Both the position numbers and the translations under genes were made by a program. Shown here one piece after another: positions 5,790 through 15,264 of a stretch of DNA of 45,219 bases; the stretch's first letter is position 1; every line of letters begins with the position of its first letter. The notes beneath the pieces were generated by a model that did not search any database, was not told where the DNA came from, and saw nothing but the letters and a program-made list of their open reading frames with translations. This DNA comes from Armatimonadota bacterium (GTDB taxonomy: Bacteria; Armatimonadota; UBA5829; JAUSEB01): NCBI GenBank assembly GCA_030649165.1, contig JAUSGG010000240.1, positions 1 to 45,219 of the forward strand, read 5' to 3'.

Positions 5790-7619
5790 ATGTGCGGAAT
5801 AGTCGGATACATCGGAACGAAAAGCGCGTGCCCGATACTGGTCGAAGGACTTAAGCGGCTGGAATATCGGGGATACGATTCCGCCGGCGTGGCCATTCTG
5901 AACGGTGGGCGCATAGAAATACATAAGGCCGCTGGAAAACTCAGAGCCCTGGAGGCCCTTCTGGAGTCCTGCGCGCCCGAGGGTCTGATAGGGCTGGGCC
6001 ATACCAGATGGGCCACCCACGGACGCCCCTCCGATGAAAACGCCCACCCGCATTCCGACTGTTCGGGTCGCATAACCGTCGTCCATAACGGCATTATTGA
6101 GAACTACCTCGCTCTGAAAGAGCAGTTGATCGCCGCGGGCCACGAGTTCAGTTCCGAGACCGACACCGAAGTCATCGCGCACCTGGTCGAACAGAGCTGC
6201 AACGGTGACCTTGTCTCCGCGGTGCGGCAGGCCGTTGCACAGTTGGAGGGGTCGTTCGCGATCGCCGTTATCGCGCAGGATGATCCGGCGCGGATAGTAG
6301 CGGCACGCCGGCATAGCCCATTGGTTGTCGGCGTGGGAGTGGGGGAGAACTTCCTGGCATCCGATGTCCCGGCCTTTCTGCCATACACGAAAAACGTATA
6401 CTTTGTAGATGACGATACTATTGCGGTGCTCGAAAGAGACCACGTCAGTTTCAGTTCTCTGGACGGGCAGCCGGTCGAGCGCGAGATATACGAAGTCACG
6501 TGGGACGCGGCGATGGCGGAACGCGGCGGCTACGAGCATTTCATGCTCAAAGAGATCAATGAGCAGCCGCAGGCCCTCAGGGAGACGATGCGCGAACGTC
6601 TTTCATCTTACAGCGCCGGCATAGAACTGCCCGGTTTGAACCTGAGTATCGAATATCTCCGGCGAATCGACAAGATCACTATGGTGGCCTGCGGGACCGC
6701 ATTCCACGCCGCCATGGTCGGCAAATACGCCATCGAAGCGCTGGTGCGGGTTCCCGTCGAGCTCGATGTCGCTTCAGAGCTTCGCTACCGGGACCCGATA
6801 ATCGACGATCGAACGCTGGCTATAGTCATAAGCCAGTCGGGTGAAACGGCGGACACACTGGCCGGTCTGCGCGAAGCCAGAGGCAAGGGAGCTTCCATTG
6901 TAGCTATTACCAACGTCGTTGGAAGCTCGGTCGCGCGCGAGAGCGAAAGCGTCCTCTACACGTTCGCCGGCCCTGAGATTGCTGTCGCGTCCACGAAAGC
7001 GTATACGACGCAGTTGATGGTGATCGAGTTGATGGCGCTCTATCTCGCCCAGGCGCGGGGCGCTCTCGATGAGACGCGGGCGCGCGAACTGCGCGAGCTG
7101 CTCTGGAACATCCCGCAGCAGGTTGAGGTGATACTTGGCGATCATCCCGAGGCGCTGCGCTGCGCCGAGAAGTACTGCAACCATAACGGCTTCCTGTACA
7201 TGGGCCGCGGGCCGAACCTGGCGTCAGCGCTGGAAGGCGCGCTGAAGATCAAGGAGATTGCCTACATACACGCCGAAGGCTACGCCGCGGGCGAGATGAA
7301 ACACGGTCCCATTGCGATGATAGACCCCGGTGTCGCTACCGTGGCAGTCGCGGTCGAGGGCAGGACGTACGACAAAGTCCTCAGCAATATCCTGGAGGTC
7401 AAAGCGCGGCAGGGAGACGTAATCGCCATCGCCTATGAGCACGACGACCAGATCGGCAAATATGCTGATCACGTCATCCGCGTCCCGCGCACTAATGAGC
7501 TGTTGTCGCCAATCCTGGCCGCGATTCCGCTGCAACTGTTGGCCTATCACGTGGCGAAAAACCGCGGGCACGAGATCGACCAGCCGAGAAACCTCGCCAA
7601 GAGCGTGACGGTGGAGTAG
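5790..7619 (+). CDS. glmS: Glutamine--fructose-6-phosphate aminotransferase (isomerizing)
   Basis: GlmS makes glucosamine-6-phosphate from fructose-6-phosphate and glutamine, the entry step to UDP-GlcNAc, peptidoglycan and LPS. The 609 residues match the family length. The N-terminal glutaminase domain begins MCGIVGYIG with the nucleophile Cys2. RWATHG and HNGIIENY motifs follow, then two SIS domains (SQSGETADT; GRGPNLASALEGALKIKEI) and the family C-terminus ending in LAKSVTVE. AGGAGG lies 11 bases before the ATG. The leader to the preceding gene is only 15 bases, so there is no room for a glmS ribozyme. Confidence 0.98.
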   Translation: MCGIVGYIGTKSACPILVEGLKRLEYRGYDSAGVAILNGGRIEIHKAAGKLRALEALLESCAPEGLIGLGHTRWATHGRPSDENAHPHSDCSGRITVVHNGIIENYLALKEQLIAAGHEFSSETDTEVIAHLVEQSCNGDLVSAVRQAVAQLEGSFAIAVIAQDDPARIVAARRHSPLVVGVGVGENFLASDVPAFLPYTKNVYFVDDDTIAVLERDHVSFSSLDGQPVEREIYEVTWDAAMAERGGYEHFMLKEINEQPQALRETMRERLSSYSAGIELPGLNLSIEYLRRIDKITMVACGTAFHAAMVGKYAIEALVRVPVELDVASELRYRDPIIDDRTLAIVISQSGETADTLAGLREARGKGASIVAITNVVGSSVARESESVLYTFAGPEIAVASTKAYTTQLMVIELMALYLAQARGALDETRARELRELLWNIPQQVEVILGDHPEALRCAEKYCNHNGFLYMGRGPNLASALEGALKIKEIAYIHAEGYAAGEMKHGPIAMIDPGVATVAVAVEGRTYDKVLSNILEVKARQGDVIAIAYEHDDQIGKYADHVIRVPRTNELLSPILAAIPLQLLAYHVAKNRGHEIDQPRNLAKSVTVE

Positions 7620-7730: not shown

Positions 7731-7799
7731 GGCAAACCACTTATGGCAAGCTGACGCGGGGATGACGCCCCGCGGTCGCCCGAAGGAGGGAACACGCGC

Positions 7800-8048
7800 A
7801 TGGCCGAACAACAGACGGTCACCTTGTATTCGACGCCGACTTGACCCTACTGTCACCAGGCCAGGAGGTACCTGACCGAAAAAGGTGTGATTGTCAAGGA
7901 ATATGACGTGGCAACCGACCTGCAGGCCCGCGACGAGATGATCCGCAAATCGGGCCAACTGGGCGTTCCGGTCATAGACGTGAACGGCAGCATCATAGTC
8001 GGCTTCAACAGAGCCAGGCTCGACCAATTGCTGCCGGCGGCCGTGTGA
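7800..8048 (+). CDS. Selenocysteine-containing glutaredoxin (UPYC active site)
   Basis: This is an 82-residue glutaredoxin/NrdH-like protein with an in-frame UGA at 7842-7844 (codon 15) exactly where the first active-site cysteine belongs: STPT-U-PYC. Reading through the UGA gives a complete family protein, with the helix HQARRYLTEKGV, the cis-Pro segment GVPVI and the C-terminal VGFNRARLDQLL. The frame has no other stop until 8046. GAAGGAGGG precedes the ATG by about 9 bases, which proves the start lies upstream of the UGA. A SECIS-like hairpin follows at 7857-7874. Selenocysteine replacing the N-terminal Cys of a CxxC motif is a known type of bacterial selenoprotein and usually raises thiol-exchange rates. 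The next gene is a thioredoxin-reductase-like protein, a likely electron donor. Standard gene callers would miss or truncate this gene. The organism must have selA/selB/selC elsewhere; none are in this window. Confidence 0.88.
7857..7874 (+). promoter_or_regulatory. Putative bacterial SECIS hairpin
   Basis: CAGG (7857-7860) pairs with CCTG (7871-7874). Inside, CC/GG can pair around an AGGA apical loop, leaving an unpaired UA. The apical GG lies at positions 23-24 counted from the U of the UGA, the same place as the critical apical guanines in the E. coli fdhF SECIS element bound by SelB. This is a by-eye fold only. Confidence 0.6.
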
Positions 8049-8075
8049 TCTTCTCTTTCTTTTCGGAGGATGACC

Positions 8076-9023
8076 TTGCACGAGCTTATCATAATCGGCG
8101 CCGGCCCGGCCGGCCTGACCGCCGGGGTCTACGCGGCGCGCAAGCAGCTCGACACGCTGATCATCAGCGAAAACGTCGGCGGGCAGACCACCTGGAGTTC
8201 GGAGATCGAGAACTACCTCGGGTTTATGTACATCACCGGGGTCGAGCTCGTCGAGCGGTTCGAGGAGCACGTTCGCCATTTCAACCTGCGCCAGGAATTC
8301 GGGCGCGTCACCCGCCTGAGCCGCATAGAGCATGGTTTCCGGGTGGAGACAGAGGATTTGCGCGAGTTTGACGCCAGAGCGGTGATAGTGGCCAGCGGCA
8401 AATCGCCCAGGATGCTGAACGTTCCCGGCGAGCGCCAATTCCGCGGCAAAGGCGTCACCTACTGTTCGACTTGCGACGCGCCGCTCTACGCGGGCTCGGA
8501 GGTCGCCGTGATTGGCGGCGGGAATTCAGGGCTCGACGCCGCCGTTCAGCTCCTCAAGATCACTCCCAAGGTCTACATCATCGAGCGAACGGACTCTTTG
8601 CGCGCTGACGAGGTTCTTCAGACAAAGGCATGGGCGGCCCCAAATGTCGAAATCCTGCTGCAGACTCTGCCTATGGAGATCAGCGGCGATGTGACCGTCA
8701 GCTCGATTTCCGTCCAGCACAAGTCCACGGGGGAGCGGCGGGTGCTGCCGGTGAGGGGCGTATTTGTCGAAATCGGACTCGTTCCGAACACTGACTTCAT
8801 CGCCGATCTGGTGAAACTCAACAAACTGGGAGAGATTCCCGTTAACTGCGCCGCGGGGACCGAGATCCCCGGACTCTTCGCGGCCGGCGACGTTACCGAT
8901 GTGCCTGAGAAACAGATCATCATCGCCGCCGGAGAAGGCGCAAAAGCCGCGCTGCAGGCCTATTCCTATCTGGTCCGTCTTCCCGCAATGGCGGCCCCAC
9001 CAGTAATGCGACCAACGTCCTAG
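8076..9023 (+). CDS. Thioredoxin reductase-like FAD/NAD(P)H flavoprotein
   Basis: This is a 315-residue protein of the TrxB/AhpF-C-terminal family. It has an FAD-binding GAGPAG near the N-terminus, redox-active CSTC in TYCSTCDAPLY, a second dinucleotide site GGGNSG, and the terminal GLFAAGDVTD FAD motif. It probably passes electrons from NAD(P)H to a small thiol protein, and the glutaredoxin directly upstream is the obvious candidate. The start is uncertain. GGAGG at 8065-8069 touches the ATG at 8070, but sits 6 bases before the in-frame TTG at 8076, which is therefore preferred. The frame is also open without a stop back to the UGA that ends the glutaredoxin. It differs from canonical TrxB (CATC) in the CSTC residues. 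Confidence 0.93.
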   Translation: MHELIIIGAGPAGLTAGVYAARKQLDTLIISENVGGQTTWSSEIENYLGFMYITGVELVERFEEHVRHFNLRQEFGRVTRLSRIEHGFRVETEDLREFDARAVIVASGKSPRMLNVPGERQFRGKGVTYCSTCDAPLYAGSEVAVIGGGNSGLDAAVQLLKITPKVYIIERTDSLRADEVLQTKAWAAPNVEILLQTLPMEISGDVTVSSISVQHKSTGERRVLPVRGVFVEIGLVPNTDFIADLVKLNKLGEIPVNCAAGTEIPGLFAAGDVTDVPEKQIIIAAGEGAKAALQAYSYLVRLPAMAAPPVMRPTS

Positions 9024-9755: not shown

Positions 9756-10361
9756 CTACCTGACGTACTTCTCCGGGTTCTTGTCGAACTGCGGCTTACA
9801 GCCGGGGCAGCAGAAGTAATACGTCTTCCCCTTGTACACGCTCTTCTCGGCGGTCTTCAAGCTCGTGACCTTTCCGCCCGATACAGGGCACTTTATTTCC
9901 GCGTTGGCGGCCGCGGGCTTTGCGTACGTGGCCGGACTCTTATCGAACTTTGGCTTGCACCCGGGGCAGCAAAAGTAATAAGTCTTGCCTTTGTACGTGC
10001 TTTTCGGCGCCGTCTTTGTGTTGGCAACCTTTCCGCCCATCACAGGGCACATTACCACGCCTTTAGCCGAAGCAGTCTTGATGAACTTGGCCGGGTCCTT
10101 ATCGAACTTCGGCTTGCAGTCCGGGCAGCAGAAATAGTAGGTCTTTCCCTTGTAAACGCTCTTGGGGGCGTTCTTCAGGTCCGCGACCTTCTTGCCCATC
10201 ACGGGACAGGTGACTTGGCCGGACGCCCCTTTCATCACGGGACACGCTGCTCCGGAGTGCACGCCGCACGTCTGTCCGTGTGTCCCTCCCGTAGCCGCCG
10301 GCGCATGAATCACCAACGCCAGCACGAACAGGACAACAATGATACCAACGATCTTCTTCAT
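9756..10361 (-). CDS. Exported protein with three tandem YHS metal-binding domains
   Basis: The 201 residues begin with an export signal or anchor (KKIVGIIVVLFVLALVIHAPA). They then carry three near-identical YHS/TRASH-like units, each with CPVMG (or CPVSG), a K-x-YKGKTYYFCCPxCK core and FDKxP-K/T-F/Y. Conserved cysteines per unit are CPV-C and FCC-x2-C. A further short CPVMKG motif precedes unit 1. YHS domains bind soft metals such as copper, so a periplasmic metal scavenger working with the neighbouring RND pump is likely. GAGGAG lies 8 bases before the ATG. The high similarity of the units suggests recent internal duplication. Confidence 0.9.
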   Translation of the reverse strand: MKKIVGIIVVLFVLALVIHAPAATGGTHGQTCGVHSGAACPVMKGASGQVTCPVMGKKVADLKNAPKSVYKGKTYYFCCPDCKPKFDKDPAKFIKTASAKGVVMCPVMGGKVANTKTAPKSTYKGKTYYFCCPGCKPKFDKSPATYAKPAAANAEIKCPVSGGKVTSLKTAEKSVYKGKTYYFCCPGCKPQFDKNPEKYVR

Positions 10362-10483: not shown

Positions 10484-11806
10484 CTACGTCCCAACCGCTC
10501 TCGCAAGCCGGTCCTGCGCGGCGTTCAACTCGTACAACGCCTGCGCGTAGTTCGTCTCGGCCCTCGTCAACGCCGCCAATGCGTCGAGGACCTCGACGTT
10601 GATGGCTTTCCCGGCCTCGTACCGCAACTTGATAACCCTGTAATCCTCTTCGGCCTGCTCGACCGCCGCCTTTGCGAGTTCAGTGTTTGTGGCGGCGGCG
10701 ACCGACTCCGCCCATGCTGTTCCGACTTCCCGGCTGACGGCAAGCTGCGCGCTTCTCAGGTCTGCCTCCGCCTGGTCGGCCATCGCGCGGGCTTCCTTAA
10801 CGGCCGATTTCCTCTGTCCCCCGTCAAAGATCGGAAACCCGGCCACAACACCGACCGTATACCCGCTGTCGAAGCTCGAACCCGAAGTCGACGCGAAGTC
10901 CTGCATGGCGATGGCGTACACCTGTGGTTTATACGCGCTTTTGGCCAGAATCGTCGTCGCTTGGACAGCTTGTATTCTTGCCCGGGCCGCCGATATCTCC
11001 GGCCGCTGCCTCAGCGCCAGCGCCTGAAGGTCGGCCAGTGGCAGCGCGCCCGGCTGGGCCGCCAGTTGGTCGGTCAGAGTTAGTTTCGACTCCAACGACA
11101 GGCCAAGCGCCGTCTTCAGATCGACCTGGGCGATCTCCACGTCCCGCTGGGCGTTGACAAGCGCCTGCTCCGACTCCGCAAGGTCCGTCTGATTCCGCAA
11201 CAGGTCATACTTCGCAATCTTGCCTTCGTCAAACGCAGCCTGGGCTATTCGGAGTCGCTCCCGGCCTTCGTCAACTCGTTTCTGATAGGCTTCCACAAAT
11301 CGCGACGCCAGCAGCGCGCGCCGATACGCCGTCTTCGCGTCCAGGGCCACGTCCAGTCTCGCCCCCGCGGCTTCAGCCTCGGCCCCTTTTGCCAGTCCTC
11401 GAGCGTTCCCGACCTGGCCCTTGAGCCTGCCGCCGGTGTAAAGCGGGTACATCGCCATCAGGTTCTGGTCCAACTGCCGCTCGTTGGGCGTGGACATTAT
11501 GGGCATGGGATCCACCGCGGGCGGCCCCGCGATGATGCTCGGAAACGTGCCCGTCGTGGCGAACGTCGTGGCGGACAGGCGGGGTCTGGTCATGGCCTTG
11601 GCCATTCCAACCCTCGCCTGAGCGGCCCGCGCCATTGCGGACTGCGACGAAATCCGCGGGTTGTTCTTGAGAGCGATCTCCACCGCTTCTGATATTGAGA
11701 CGGACTGCGTAATCGCAGGAAAGCTGGGTTCCGTCTTCTCAGGGGTTTGCGCAAGCGCCGGCGAGCAAACCATTATGGCGATAAACAACCACGTCGCAAA
11801 TCTCAT
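10484..11806 (-). CDS. TolC-family outer membrane efflux protein
   Basis: The 440 residues match the family length. A signal peptide (RFATWLFIAIMVCSPALAQ) is followed by two homologous OEP halves of long coiled helices rich in Ala, Glu and Gln, ending with NYAQALYELNAAQDRLARAVG. It should form the outer-membrane exit duct for the RND pump encoded just upstream. Its ATG overlaps the stop of the permease gene by 4 bases, so the two are translationally coupled. Together with the adaptor they make a full tripartite system. Confidence 0.93.
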   Translation of the reverse strand: MRFATWLFIAIMVCSPALAQTPEKTEPSFPAITQSVSISEAVEIALKNNPRISSQSAMARAAQARVGMAKAMTRPRLSATTFATTGTFPSIIAGPPAVDPMPIMSTPNERQLDQNLMAMYPLYTGGRLKGQVGNARGLAKGAEAEAAGARLDVALDAKTAYRRALLASRFVEAYQKRVDEGRERLRIAQAAFDEGKIAKYDLLRNQTDLAESEQALVNAQRDVEIAQVDLKTALGLSLESKLTLTDQLAAQPGALPLADLQALALRQRPEISAARARIQAVQATTILAKSAYKPQVYAIAMQDFASTSGSSFDSGYTVGVVAGFPIFDGGQRKSAVKEARAMADQAEADLRSAQLAVSREVGTAWAESVAAATNTELAKAAVEQAEEDYRVIKLRYEAGKAINVEVLDALAALTRAETNYAQALYELNAAQDRLARAVGT

Positions 11807-14800
11807 GCGTCGGTCCTTTCCGGGACGGCCGCGCTGGACTCATACTCCCCCTCGCCAAACTGGGCGATCACCGGCCAGGTCCATTCCCGCTTCAAGAATC
11901 GCCGGTTCACCCAGACGATGAAGTCGTCCACGTAAGTGTGCATTATCGGGATGTCGAACAGGCTCAGTATTGTACCTATCAGCAGTCCTCCGAGAATCAC
12001 CGTCCCCAGCGGCTGGTAGGCGTCCATGCCGGTCTTCGGGAAAAACGCCACCGGCGCCATAACGATCATGGTGATCATCGACGTCATCAGAATCGGTCGC
12101 AGCCTCTGCGGGCACGCCTCGACAACAGCCTGGTCCCTGGGCACGCCTCTGTCTCGGTATCGCGCGATCATATCGATCAGCAGTATGGCCGTGGTGATGT
12201 CCATTCCCGTGAGCACGATCACAGCCATGACGGACACGGTGGAGAATGCCTGATGGGCGAGGAACAACGCCACGAACACACCCGACAGCTCCAGCGGCAG
12301 CGAGAAGACCATTTGCAGAGGCTGCAGGAATCCCCTGAACTGCGCGACCAGCACCAGGAAGATGAATATCACCGCGATCTGAAGCCCGATCAGCAGTCTG
12401 CGGAAACTGTCCATCATCTGCGTCATATCGCCCCGCGCTTCGATGCCGTATCCCGGTGGGAAATTCACTTGGCTCATCGCGCGCATCATCAGGTCCATCG
12501 TCACGTCCATCGACGGAGGATTGTGCCGGCCAAGGTGTCCGTCTTTGCGATAAAATCCGTTTACGGACACGACCCGCCGCACGCCGTCGTGTTCTAGTAT
12601 TGTCGGGGCGACTTCCCGGCTGATGTTGGCCACGCTCTTCAGCGAGACCTGCCGCCCGTCCGGCGCCGTCACGTACATTCCGGCCAGGTCGGCTGCGTTA
12701 CGGCGGTCGTTCTGCTCGTATCTGATCAGGACGGTGTCCTGCCTGACGTTGGGAAGCCGGTACCACTCATTTGCGAGACCGCCGTTGAGAGCGTAGTACG
12801 CCTGCTGCGAAATGTCCTCCGGCGTCAGCCCCAGCGCCTGAGCCCGCTCCGGAATGACATCCACCTTATACGAAGGCTGCGCCATATCCCAACTGGACGA
12901 CGCCTGGTACATTCCCGGTGTCTGCTTTGCCACGTCCAGGACCTGCTGCCCAATCCGGCTCAGCACGTTCATATCTTTCCCGTACACAACCACCGACACC
13001 GGCGCGAGCGAGCTGGCCATCACGTCCGAACCCATCTCCTTGATCTGCAGGCGGCGTATGCCGGGGATCGTGGACGTGGCCTCGTCGTGAATAGCGTCCA
13101 CGATCTGCCAGATGTCGCGCCCGCGGTCGTCTTTATCGGAAAAGGTCATCATCATCGTGGCGGCGTTGGCCTGTGGCATTGCGTAACCCGTATAGAATGG
13201 ACTGAAGCTCTCGAACAGCGATTCGGCGCCGATCTCGGTGGAGACCTTCTCAATCTCGGGGTATTTCGCTATGATCTTTTCCAGTCCCTTGACGGCGCGC
13301 TCGGTTTCGACGAAGCTGGTTCCGGGGGCCATCTCCAGGACCCCATACGCCTGCCCCACGTCGGCGAGCGGCATCATCTCCGATCCGATGAAATGGTAGA
13401 AGGTGAACCCGATGATCACCGTTGCCAGGATTCGGGCCATGTTAGAGAATCTGTGCTGCAGCATCCAGCGAATGATATTCGCGTAGCCGCCTTCCATGCG
13501 GTCGAGCAGGCCCTGAATCGGACCGAGTATGCCGCGGTACAGCCAGCGCCTGCGTTCACCCTCAAGTTCTGCGTGCGGCCTCAGCAGGTTCGCGCACAAA
13601 AGCGCCGTGAGCGTGAACGACACCAGCATCGACGCGAGCAATCCCAGGATGATCGGCCACACAAGTTCCACAAACATGAACTGGACAATCCCACCGGCAA
13701 AGAGTAGGGGACTCAGCGCGAGAACGAGCACAACAGTGGAGGCGATGACAGCCAGCCTCACCTCCGCGATGCCGTCGATGGTGGCCCGTTTCGGGTCCTT
13801 TCCCATTCGCATGTGACGCTCGACGGCATGGATGTCGATTATCGAGTCGTCCACGAGTCTCCCGATGCAGAGCAGCAGTCCGATCAGCGTGCCCGAGTTC
13901 AGCGTCATCCCCATCGCGGTCAGCCCGAGTATCGCCATCGCCAGGGATATCGGAATCGTGATGAGCGATATCAGTGTTCCGCGCCACTCGCCCAAAAACA
14001 AGAGCACGGCGATTGCCGTCAGCAGTATCGCTATGCCCAATTCCTCGAACATGTTCTCAAAGAGTATGTTGACGAACTGGGCGTTGTCGTAGGCGACTTC
14101 GAACTTGACTCCCGGGTTCTCCGCCTCAAGCTGCTTAAGTATCTTCTGCACGGCGGGGACGACTCTTGCCGAACTCGCGCCGGGGTCTTGTATGATAGCC
14201 GCTTCGATCGCTTCCTTGCTCTTGCCGTTGTGCATGTACCGGTACGCGCTCCTGCGCTCCCAATACGTGTCCGCGACTTTCGCAACGTCTCGCACGTAGA
14301 CGATTCTTGGCTGGTCGAGCGTTCCAGCGCCGGCGGTGGACTGCTCCGTCTGCGCCGTCATGGCGCCAACCCGCGCGCCCATGCCTCCGGCCTGCCCGCC
14401 CATTCCACCGGAAGCGACCGGCCGCGGCCTGAGCGCTGATCCGTTTGCGCTCGCAAGCGGATAGTCCAGAACCGTGTTCGCGTCCACGGCCCGCGTGTCC
14501 ACGCGCACGATGCTCTCGTTTGCTCCGCTCGTGAGCCGCCCGCCGGACCGGCTCACGTTATATCGGTCGATGGCATTTCGCACGTCGAGGATGGACATCT
14601 TGTACGCCGCAAGTTTGTCCCTGTCCACAATTACCTGCAACTGCCGCTTATACCCGCCAAATGGTACGACCGAGTAGACGTTCGGTATCACCTTCACGCG
14701 GTTGATGACGTCGTTGTCCACCATCTCGCGAAGCCGCGGCTTGTCCCATCGCTCGTCCCCTGTAACGGCAATGGACAGGATTGGCAGGTTCAACGGGTCA

Positions 14801-15264
14801 ATTGCGAGGACCCAGCTCGGTTTCAGGTTCGCCCCCGTCGTGGGCAGGTTCGCCTGAACGACGTTCATCAGCGACTGCACGTCGAACAGGGCCTTTTTCA
14901 TGTCGGTCCCGTAGTTGAACTCCAGGGATACGATGGAGAACCCGTCCTGCGAGGTCGATCTAATGTAGTGCAGGTTCTTGACGTTCACCAGGCTCTCTTC
15001 GATCGGTTTGGAGATGTACATCTCCATTTCCTGAGAGGAGAGCCCCGGCATCATCGAAACCACGCCGATCATCGGACTTTCGACGTAGGGCATGAACCGC
15101 CTGGGCACGTATAACCGGATCGCGAGAACCGCCATTATGACCACGGCCAGGTAAAACGAGATGATCACGTAGGGGTGCTCGATCGACCATTTGTGGATCA
15201 TGTGCAGCGCGGTCGCCCCGCGTGTTTCCATCCTCGGCCTGGTTGTTGGGTTGTTATCTGACAT
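11803..15264 (-). CDS. RND-family efflux permease (inner-membrane pump)
   Basis: The 1153 residues include the usual RND elements: TM1 near residues 30-50, the large loop, FLGEWRGTLISLITIPISL, the TM4 segment with GRLVDDSIIDIHAVERH, the second-half loop and the closing TM bundle. The TM4 aspartate pair (VDD) matches the multidrug-type (HAE) pattern rather than the VDG of typical CzcA/CusA metal pumps. Its neighbours, however, all bind metals. It is about 100 residues longer than average, partly because of a Gly/Met-rich insert at about residues 280-320 (GGMGGQAGGMGARVGAM), which could be a flexible metal-binding loop. It is proton-driven by family analogy. Confidence 0.92.
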   Translation of the reverse strand: MSDNNPTTRPRMETRGATALHMIHKWSIEHPYVIISFYLAVVIMAVLAIRLYVPRRFMPYVESPMIGVVSMMPGLSSQEMEMYISKPIEESLVNVKNLHYIRSTSQDGFSIVSLEFNYGTDMKKALFDVQSLMNVVQANLPTTGANLKPSWVLAIDPLNLPILSIAVTGDERWDKPRLREMVDNDVINRVKVIPNVYSVVPFGGYKRQLQVIVDRDKLAAYKMSILDVRNAIDRYNVSRSGGRLTSGANESIVRVDTRAVDANTVLDYPLASANGSALRPRPVASGGMGGQAGGMGARVGAMTAQTEQSTAGAGTLDQPRIVYVRDVAKVADTYWERRSAYRYMHNGKSKEAIEAAIIQDPGASSARVVPAVQKILKQLEAENPGVKFEVAYDNAQFVNILFENMFEELGIAILLTAIAVLLFLGEWRGTLISLITIPISLAMAILGLTAMGMTLNSGTLIGLLLCIGRLVDDSIIDIHAVERHMRMGKDPKRATIDGIAEVRLAVIASTVVLVLALSPLLFAGGIVQFMFVELVWPIILGLLASMLVSFTLTALLCANLLRPHAELEGERRRWLYRGILGPIQGLLDRMEGGYANIIRWMLQHRFSNMARILATVIIGFTFYHFIGSEMMPLADVGQAYGVLEMAPGTSFVETERAVKGLEKIIAKYPEIEKVSTEIGAESLFESFSPFYTGYAMPQANAATMMMTFSDKDDRGRDIWQIVDAIHDEATSTIPGIRRLQIKEMGSDVMASSLAPVSVVVYGKDMNVLSRIGQQVLDVAKQTPGMYQASSSWDMAQPSYKVDVIPERAQALGLTPEDISQQAYYALNGGLANEWYRLPNVRQDTVLIRYEQNDRRNAADLAGMYVTAPDGRQVSLKSVANISREVAPTILEHDGVRRVVSVNGFYRKDGHLGRHNPPSMDVTMDLMMRAMSQVNFPPGYGIEARGDMTQMMDSFRRLLIGLQIAVIFIFLVLVAQFRGFLQPLQMVFSLPLELSGVFVALFLAHQAFSTVSVMAVIVLTGMDITTAILLIDMIARYRDRGVPRDQAVVEACPQRLRPILMTSMITMIVMAPVAFFPKTGMDAYQPLGTVILGGLLIGTILSLFDIPIMHTYVDDFIVWVNRRFLKREWTWPVIAQFGEGEYESSAAVPERTDA

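Follow-up and report, generated by a model that had tools for sequence, protein, structure and literature searches.

A predicted selenocysteine-containing glutaredoxin encoded across an in-frame UGA in an Armatimonadota bacterium

A short glutaredoxin gene from an Armatimonadota bacterium carries an in-frame TGA at its catalytic cysteine position, and this codon is very probably decoded as selenocysteine (Sec) in a working glutaredoxin. The gene lies in a window of 45,219 nucleotides (the whole stretch of DNA that was analysed), which forms contig C97 of a MAG of 5.48 Mb, estimated to be 99.27% complete and 2.46% contaminated. It runs from an ATG at 7800 to a TGA stop at 8046-8048 and codes for 82 residues; the internal TGA corresponds to residue 15, within the active site STPT-(TGA)-PYC, that is, UPYC with Sec15. 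The features of the locus are as follows:

7784-7789, forward strand: ribosome binding site AGGAGG, read directly from the sequence, 10 nt 5' of the ATG and hence also 5' of the TGA
7800-8048, forward strand: predicted selenoglutaredoxin gene, 82 aa, Sec15 in UPYC, assigned from PF00462, TIGR02196 and the translation
7842-7844, forward strand: in-frame UGA, predicted to encode Sec in place of the catalytic Cys, with Cys in same-class orthologues and TGA in some wider homologues and in another glutaredoxin gene of this genome
7859-7877, forward strand: putative bacterial SECIS hairpin GGCCAGGAGGUACCUGACC, found by folding, with the loop AGGUA at 7866-7870 and GGU at 7867-7869
8070-9023, forward strand: thioredoxin-reductase-like / AhpF C-terminal-like FAD oxidoreductase with a CSTC motif (Pfam Pyr_redox_2, 146.5 bits)

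When scored with Cys substituted at the TGA, the product matched Pfam Glutaredoxin PF00462 at 70.9 bits (cut-off 22.9), covering positions 1-60 of the 60-position profile, and NCBIfam TIGR02196 (YruB-type glutaredoxin) at 93.5 bits, above the curated cut-off of 88.55. The YruB type, and not Grx3, is its best family match, and the glutaredoxin fold is clear from sequence. Scores against the UXX-star models were all below their curated cut-offs, with 58.6 bits for NF041212 (cut-off 66), 41.8 for NF041114 (72) and 31.3 for NF041211 (100). A preliminary description of this DNA had proposed a complete glutaredoxin frame reading STPT-UGA-PYC, with a ribosome binding site 5' of the UGA; the coordinates of the frame proved exact, both glutaredoxin family cut-offs were passed, and the site is the AGGAGG listed above. 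The product would be a cytoplasmic dithiol-type glutaredoxin in which the nucleophile is selenocysteine. As suggested by the anatomy of the gene and by a complete set of sel genes, SelB with Sec-tRNA-Sec would bind the GGU apical loop of the hairpin just 3' of the UGA, allowing this codon to be read as Sec. Judging from what is known of the family, Sec15 would then attack the oxidised substrate and Cys18 would resolve the intermediate, a UPYC selenenyl-sulfide cycle that could act on disulfides or other substrates.

The electron donor for this cycle is probably the adjoining flavoprotein encoded at 8070-9023. This protein scored 317.9 bits against TIGR01292 (thioredoxin reductase), under the equivalog cut-off of 343.45, and 336.1 bits against TIGR03140, again under the equivalog cut-off, and by these scores it is a relative of thioredoxin reductase (TrxR-like), not an equivalog. 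It adjoins the glutaredoxin in 11 of 11 full-length relatives from the same order, which show identities of 52-68% for the glutaredoxin and 59-71% for the reductase. In the 99%-complete genome, no match was obtained to TIGR01380, the one glutathione synthase family searched. Because the adjacency is conserved and glutathione synthase was not found, re-reduction by the flavoprotein rather than by glutathione is favoured and held to be probable. The alternative that survives best accepts a genuine selenoglutaredoxin and has it reduced by glutathione (GSH) or another low-molecular-weight thiol. Glutaredoxins are classically GSH-dependent, the Grx1 of Clostridium oremlandii has been described as GSH-reduced (PMC7642778), and the search covered one glutathione synthase family; nonetheless, the missing match, the conserved neighbour and a best family of the YruB type instead of Grx3 make this route unlikely. 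Near these redox genes, the protein encoded at 9756-10361 on the reverse strand has three YHS domains, which are probably metal binding.

Reduction of the glutaredoxin aside, the reading of UGA as Sec requires a decoding apparatus, and the genome possesses one. The preliminary description had held that this lineage makes selenocysteine, a claim borne out by a search in which selA, selB, selC and selD were each detected in the MAG. SelA scored 579.9 bits; SelB scored 382.6 bits and has a GTPase domain together with the winged-helix domains SelB-wing_2 and wing_3 (SECIS-binding); selC was found as a tRNA-Sec at 73 bits, called by ARAGORN as tRNA-SeC with anticodon tca (UCA). SelD, at 395 bits, has an in-frame TGA of its own in GAG-U-ACK, at the catalytic Cys position, so that the selenophosphate synthetase is here itself a predicted selenoprotein. 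An origin of the sel genes in contamination of the MAG was considered and found unlikely because SelA shares 73% identity with its counterpart in G012, the only genome of the same family searched (48-56% to three other members of the class); selA is also common in the order. Besides the gene in the window, three further genes of the genome have a TGA at a known Sec position:

L017:1531-1533: in-frame TGA of selD, GAG-U-ACK, with a strong hairpin with a GGU apex downstream
L162:1885-1887: in-frame TGA of the formate dehydrogenase alpha gene, ART-U-HAP, with the hairpin loop GGUCU downstream
L160:2060-2836, reverse strand, contig C5: second TGA glutaredoxin, a 258-residue predicted lipoprotein with the lipobox LMAGC and a C-terminal STPT-U-PYC glutaredoxin domain

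The predicted lipoprotein nature of the second glutaredoxin points outside the cytoplasm, implying an extracytoplasmic selenoprotein. It is conceivable, and put forward only tentatively, that Armatimonadota combine a GSH-free relay from NAD(P)H through the flavoprotein to the selenoglutaredoxin with a second, membrane-anchored extracytoplasmic selenoglutaredoxin lipoprotein; if true, Sec-based disulfide reduction would take place on both sides of the membrane.

Comparison with homologues has shown how the Sec codon varies. The codon specifies Cys (TGC or TGT) in 13 full-length orthologues of the same class and in a partial one from G012. A scan of 80 homologues from public genomes displays the expected U/C exchange, with a Cys codon in 69 (51 TGC and 18 TGT) and TGA in 11, the TGA forms coming mainly from Sulfobacillus-like Bacillota. 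The placement of the TGA is beyond chance on this comparison, because it falls on the catalytic Cys of the orthologues and because the same residue is TGA in the second glutaredoxin and in 11 of the 80 homologues. Above-cut-off selA was found in 10 of the 11 genomes of the TGA-form homologues; selA permits the U form and does not predict it, because it is likewise present in six of eight genomes that contributed Cys forms to that scan. Two Armatimonadota TGA-form glutaredoxins, L140 (genome G226) and L158 (G237), come from genomes that are 74% and 88% complete and have no selA above the cut-off, owing to missing contigs or to something else.

On a tree of 104 rows built from 78 columns, in which many forks were left open, the window glutaredoxin groups with Cys-containing members of its own order. 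Eight changes of the U label are required, at least five of them forced by well-supported branches, and several independent Cys/Sec exchanges are therefore likely. The window gene itself probably represents an independent exchange, as its nearest sequences are the Cys forms of its own order. In rare UxxC families, the exchange has been described as commonly running from Cys to Sec (PMC1794560).

The same comparisons bear on the possibility that the gene is a pseudogene, in which a TGC to TGA nonsense mutation ends translation after 14 residues. A single substitution separates TGC or TGT from TGA, and the close orthologues all have Cys. Against this, the remainder of the gene is intact, and in the 64 codons 3' of the TGA the differences from the Cys orthologue L023 of the same order fall at codon positions 1, 2 and 3 in 13, 6 and 45 cases, 32 codons being synonymous and 18 nonsynonymous. 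Judged from this pattern, constraint at the protein level has acted on the region 3' of the UGA, although old constraint would linger after a recent mutation. Taking into account also the second glutaredoxin with TGA at the same residue, the recurrence of the TGA form among the homologues and the complete Sec machinery, a pseudogene is very improbable. Equally improbable is a reassignment or suppression of UGA, with Trp, Gly or near-cognate Cys inserted instead of Sec. Readthrough of a UGA is on its own no proof of Sec; on the other hand, the glutaredoxin gene itself ends with TGA, long neighbouring frames (e.g. 5790-7619, 8070-9023 and 11803-15264) are open with no internal TGA, the UGA stands at a catalytic Cys site in a genome with tRNA-Sec and SelB, and the SelB pathway is established for UGA in bacterial selenoproteins (PMC1794560). 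An error of sequencing or assembly at one base, conceivable for a contig from a single MAG assembly, is hardly credible, as it would have to strike the exact expected Sec codon, and again in the second gene and in separately assembled genomes of other phyla, most of them selA-positive.

Decoding of the UGA as Sec would further call for a SECIS element, and a candidate is present immediately downstream. In the hairpin at 7859-7877 the GGU occupies positions +26 to +28 (the U of UGA being +1), with a folding energy of -5.7 kcal/mol. The preliminary description had placed an apical GG at +23/+24; a hairpin is upheld, if weakly, while the position is not, since GG is apical there only in a weaker alternative fold of -3.9 kcal/mol. 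The published bSECIS model asks for G in the first two loop positions, a spacing of 16-37 nt and an MFE of -7.5 or lower (PMC13188914). Applied to the window hairpin, it gives a mixed result: the AGGUA loop and the spacing of 21 nt fit, whereas the energy of -5.7 misses the cut-off of -7.5, and the region did not rise above dinucleotide shuffles (z near 0). As evidence this generic model was set aside, for it discriminates little: when 298 random TGAs of the window were examined with the MFE limit of -7.5, the model was passed by 132 (44%). Rfam at gathering scores returned no match in the window, a result that is little informative for short bacterial SECIS elements.

Each of the genome's four Sec genes has a hairpin with a GGU apical loop 3' of its TGA, compared with 25 among 298 random TGAs, and the synonymous-codon null for the window hairpin is 1.75%. 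G27-U28 lies in the loop of all four Armatimonadota TGA glutaredoxins (the window gene, L042, L140 and L158), with synonymous-codon null fractions of 0.0025-0.0375; the GU/GGU apical-loop criterion was picked after the folds had been seen, and the null fractions are exploratory. None of the Bacillota TGA forms showed a hairpin that places GU in the corresponding loop. Among the Cys forms of the class, only L036, from a genome of the same family, has a comparable hairpin, with a CGGUA loop near 1543-1592. By analogy with the remnant SECIS elements described elsewhere (PMC1794560), it may be a relic of a Sec-to-Cys exchange. The window hairpin is weak alone, and the two GGU/GU loop comparisons lend it weight.

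These results document the use of Sec in Armatimonadota through four concordant Sec genes. A literature search found no report of a selenoprotein for this phylum, which is not proof of absence, and automatic annotation probably misses or truncates such genes. The repeated U/C exchange in YruB-type glutaredoxins also offers a clean series in which to study why Sec takes the place of Cys.

The gene is a new example of a kind of selenoprotein already known from other bacteria, as the preliminary description had anticipated: the family is a listed one, and the Grx1 of Clostridium (Alkaliphilus) oremlandii, cGrx1, is a native selenoprotein glutaredoxin with UPXC (PDB 7C10/7C12/7C13; PMC7642778). 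Its structure 7C10 is the top PDB match of the window protein (54.4 bits, residues 6-78), and both are selenoglutaredoxins with a UPXC-type motif, predicted in the present case. The motif is UPHC in cGrx1 and UPYC here. In addition, cGrx1 has been described as GSH-reduced and proposed as the reductant of a Sec-containing MsrA (PMC7642778), whereas a search for such a partner here found an MsrA with no in-frame stop, and a TrxR-like flavoprotein is adjacent. Sec glutaredoxins of Geobacter, Alkaliphilus and Moorella are known from comparative genomics (PMC1794560, PMC13188914) and share PF00462 with UxxC, which counts among the listed selenoprotein families of prokaryotes; they belong to other phyla, while the window protein is nearest to Cys-containing sequences from its own order. 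The Cys forms of the YruB family (TIGR02196) resemble it in that it passes their cut-off and that same-order Cys orthologues have the same downstream reductase, and differ from its predicted Sec at the catalytic position. The UXX-star proteins (NF041212, NF041114 and NF041211) are distantly related glutaredoxin-like selenoproteins, from which the window protein is set apart by scores below every cut-off and by its resolving Cys, retained in UPYC.
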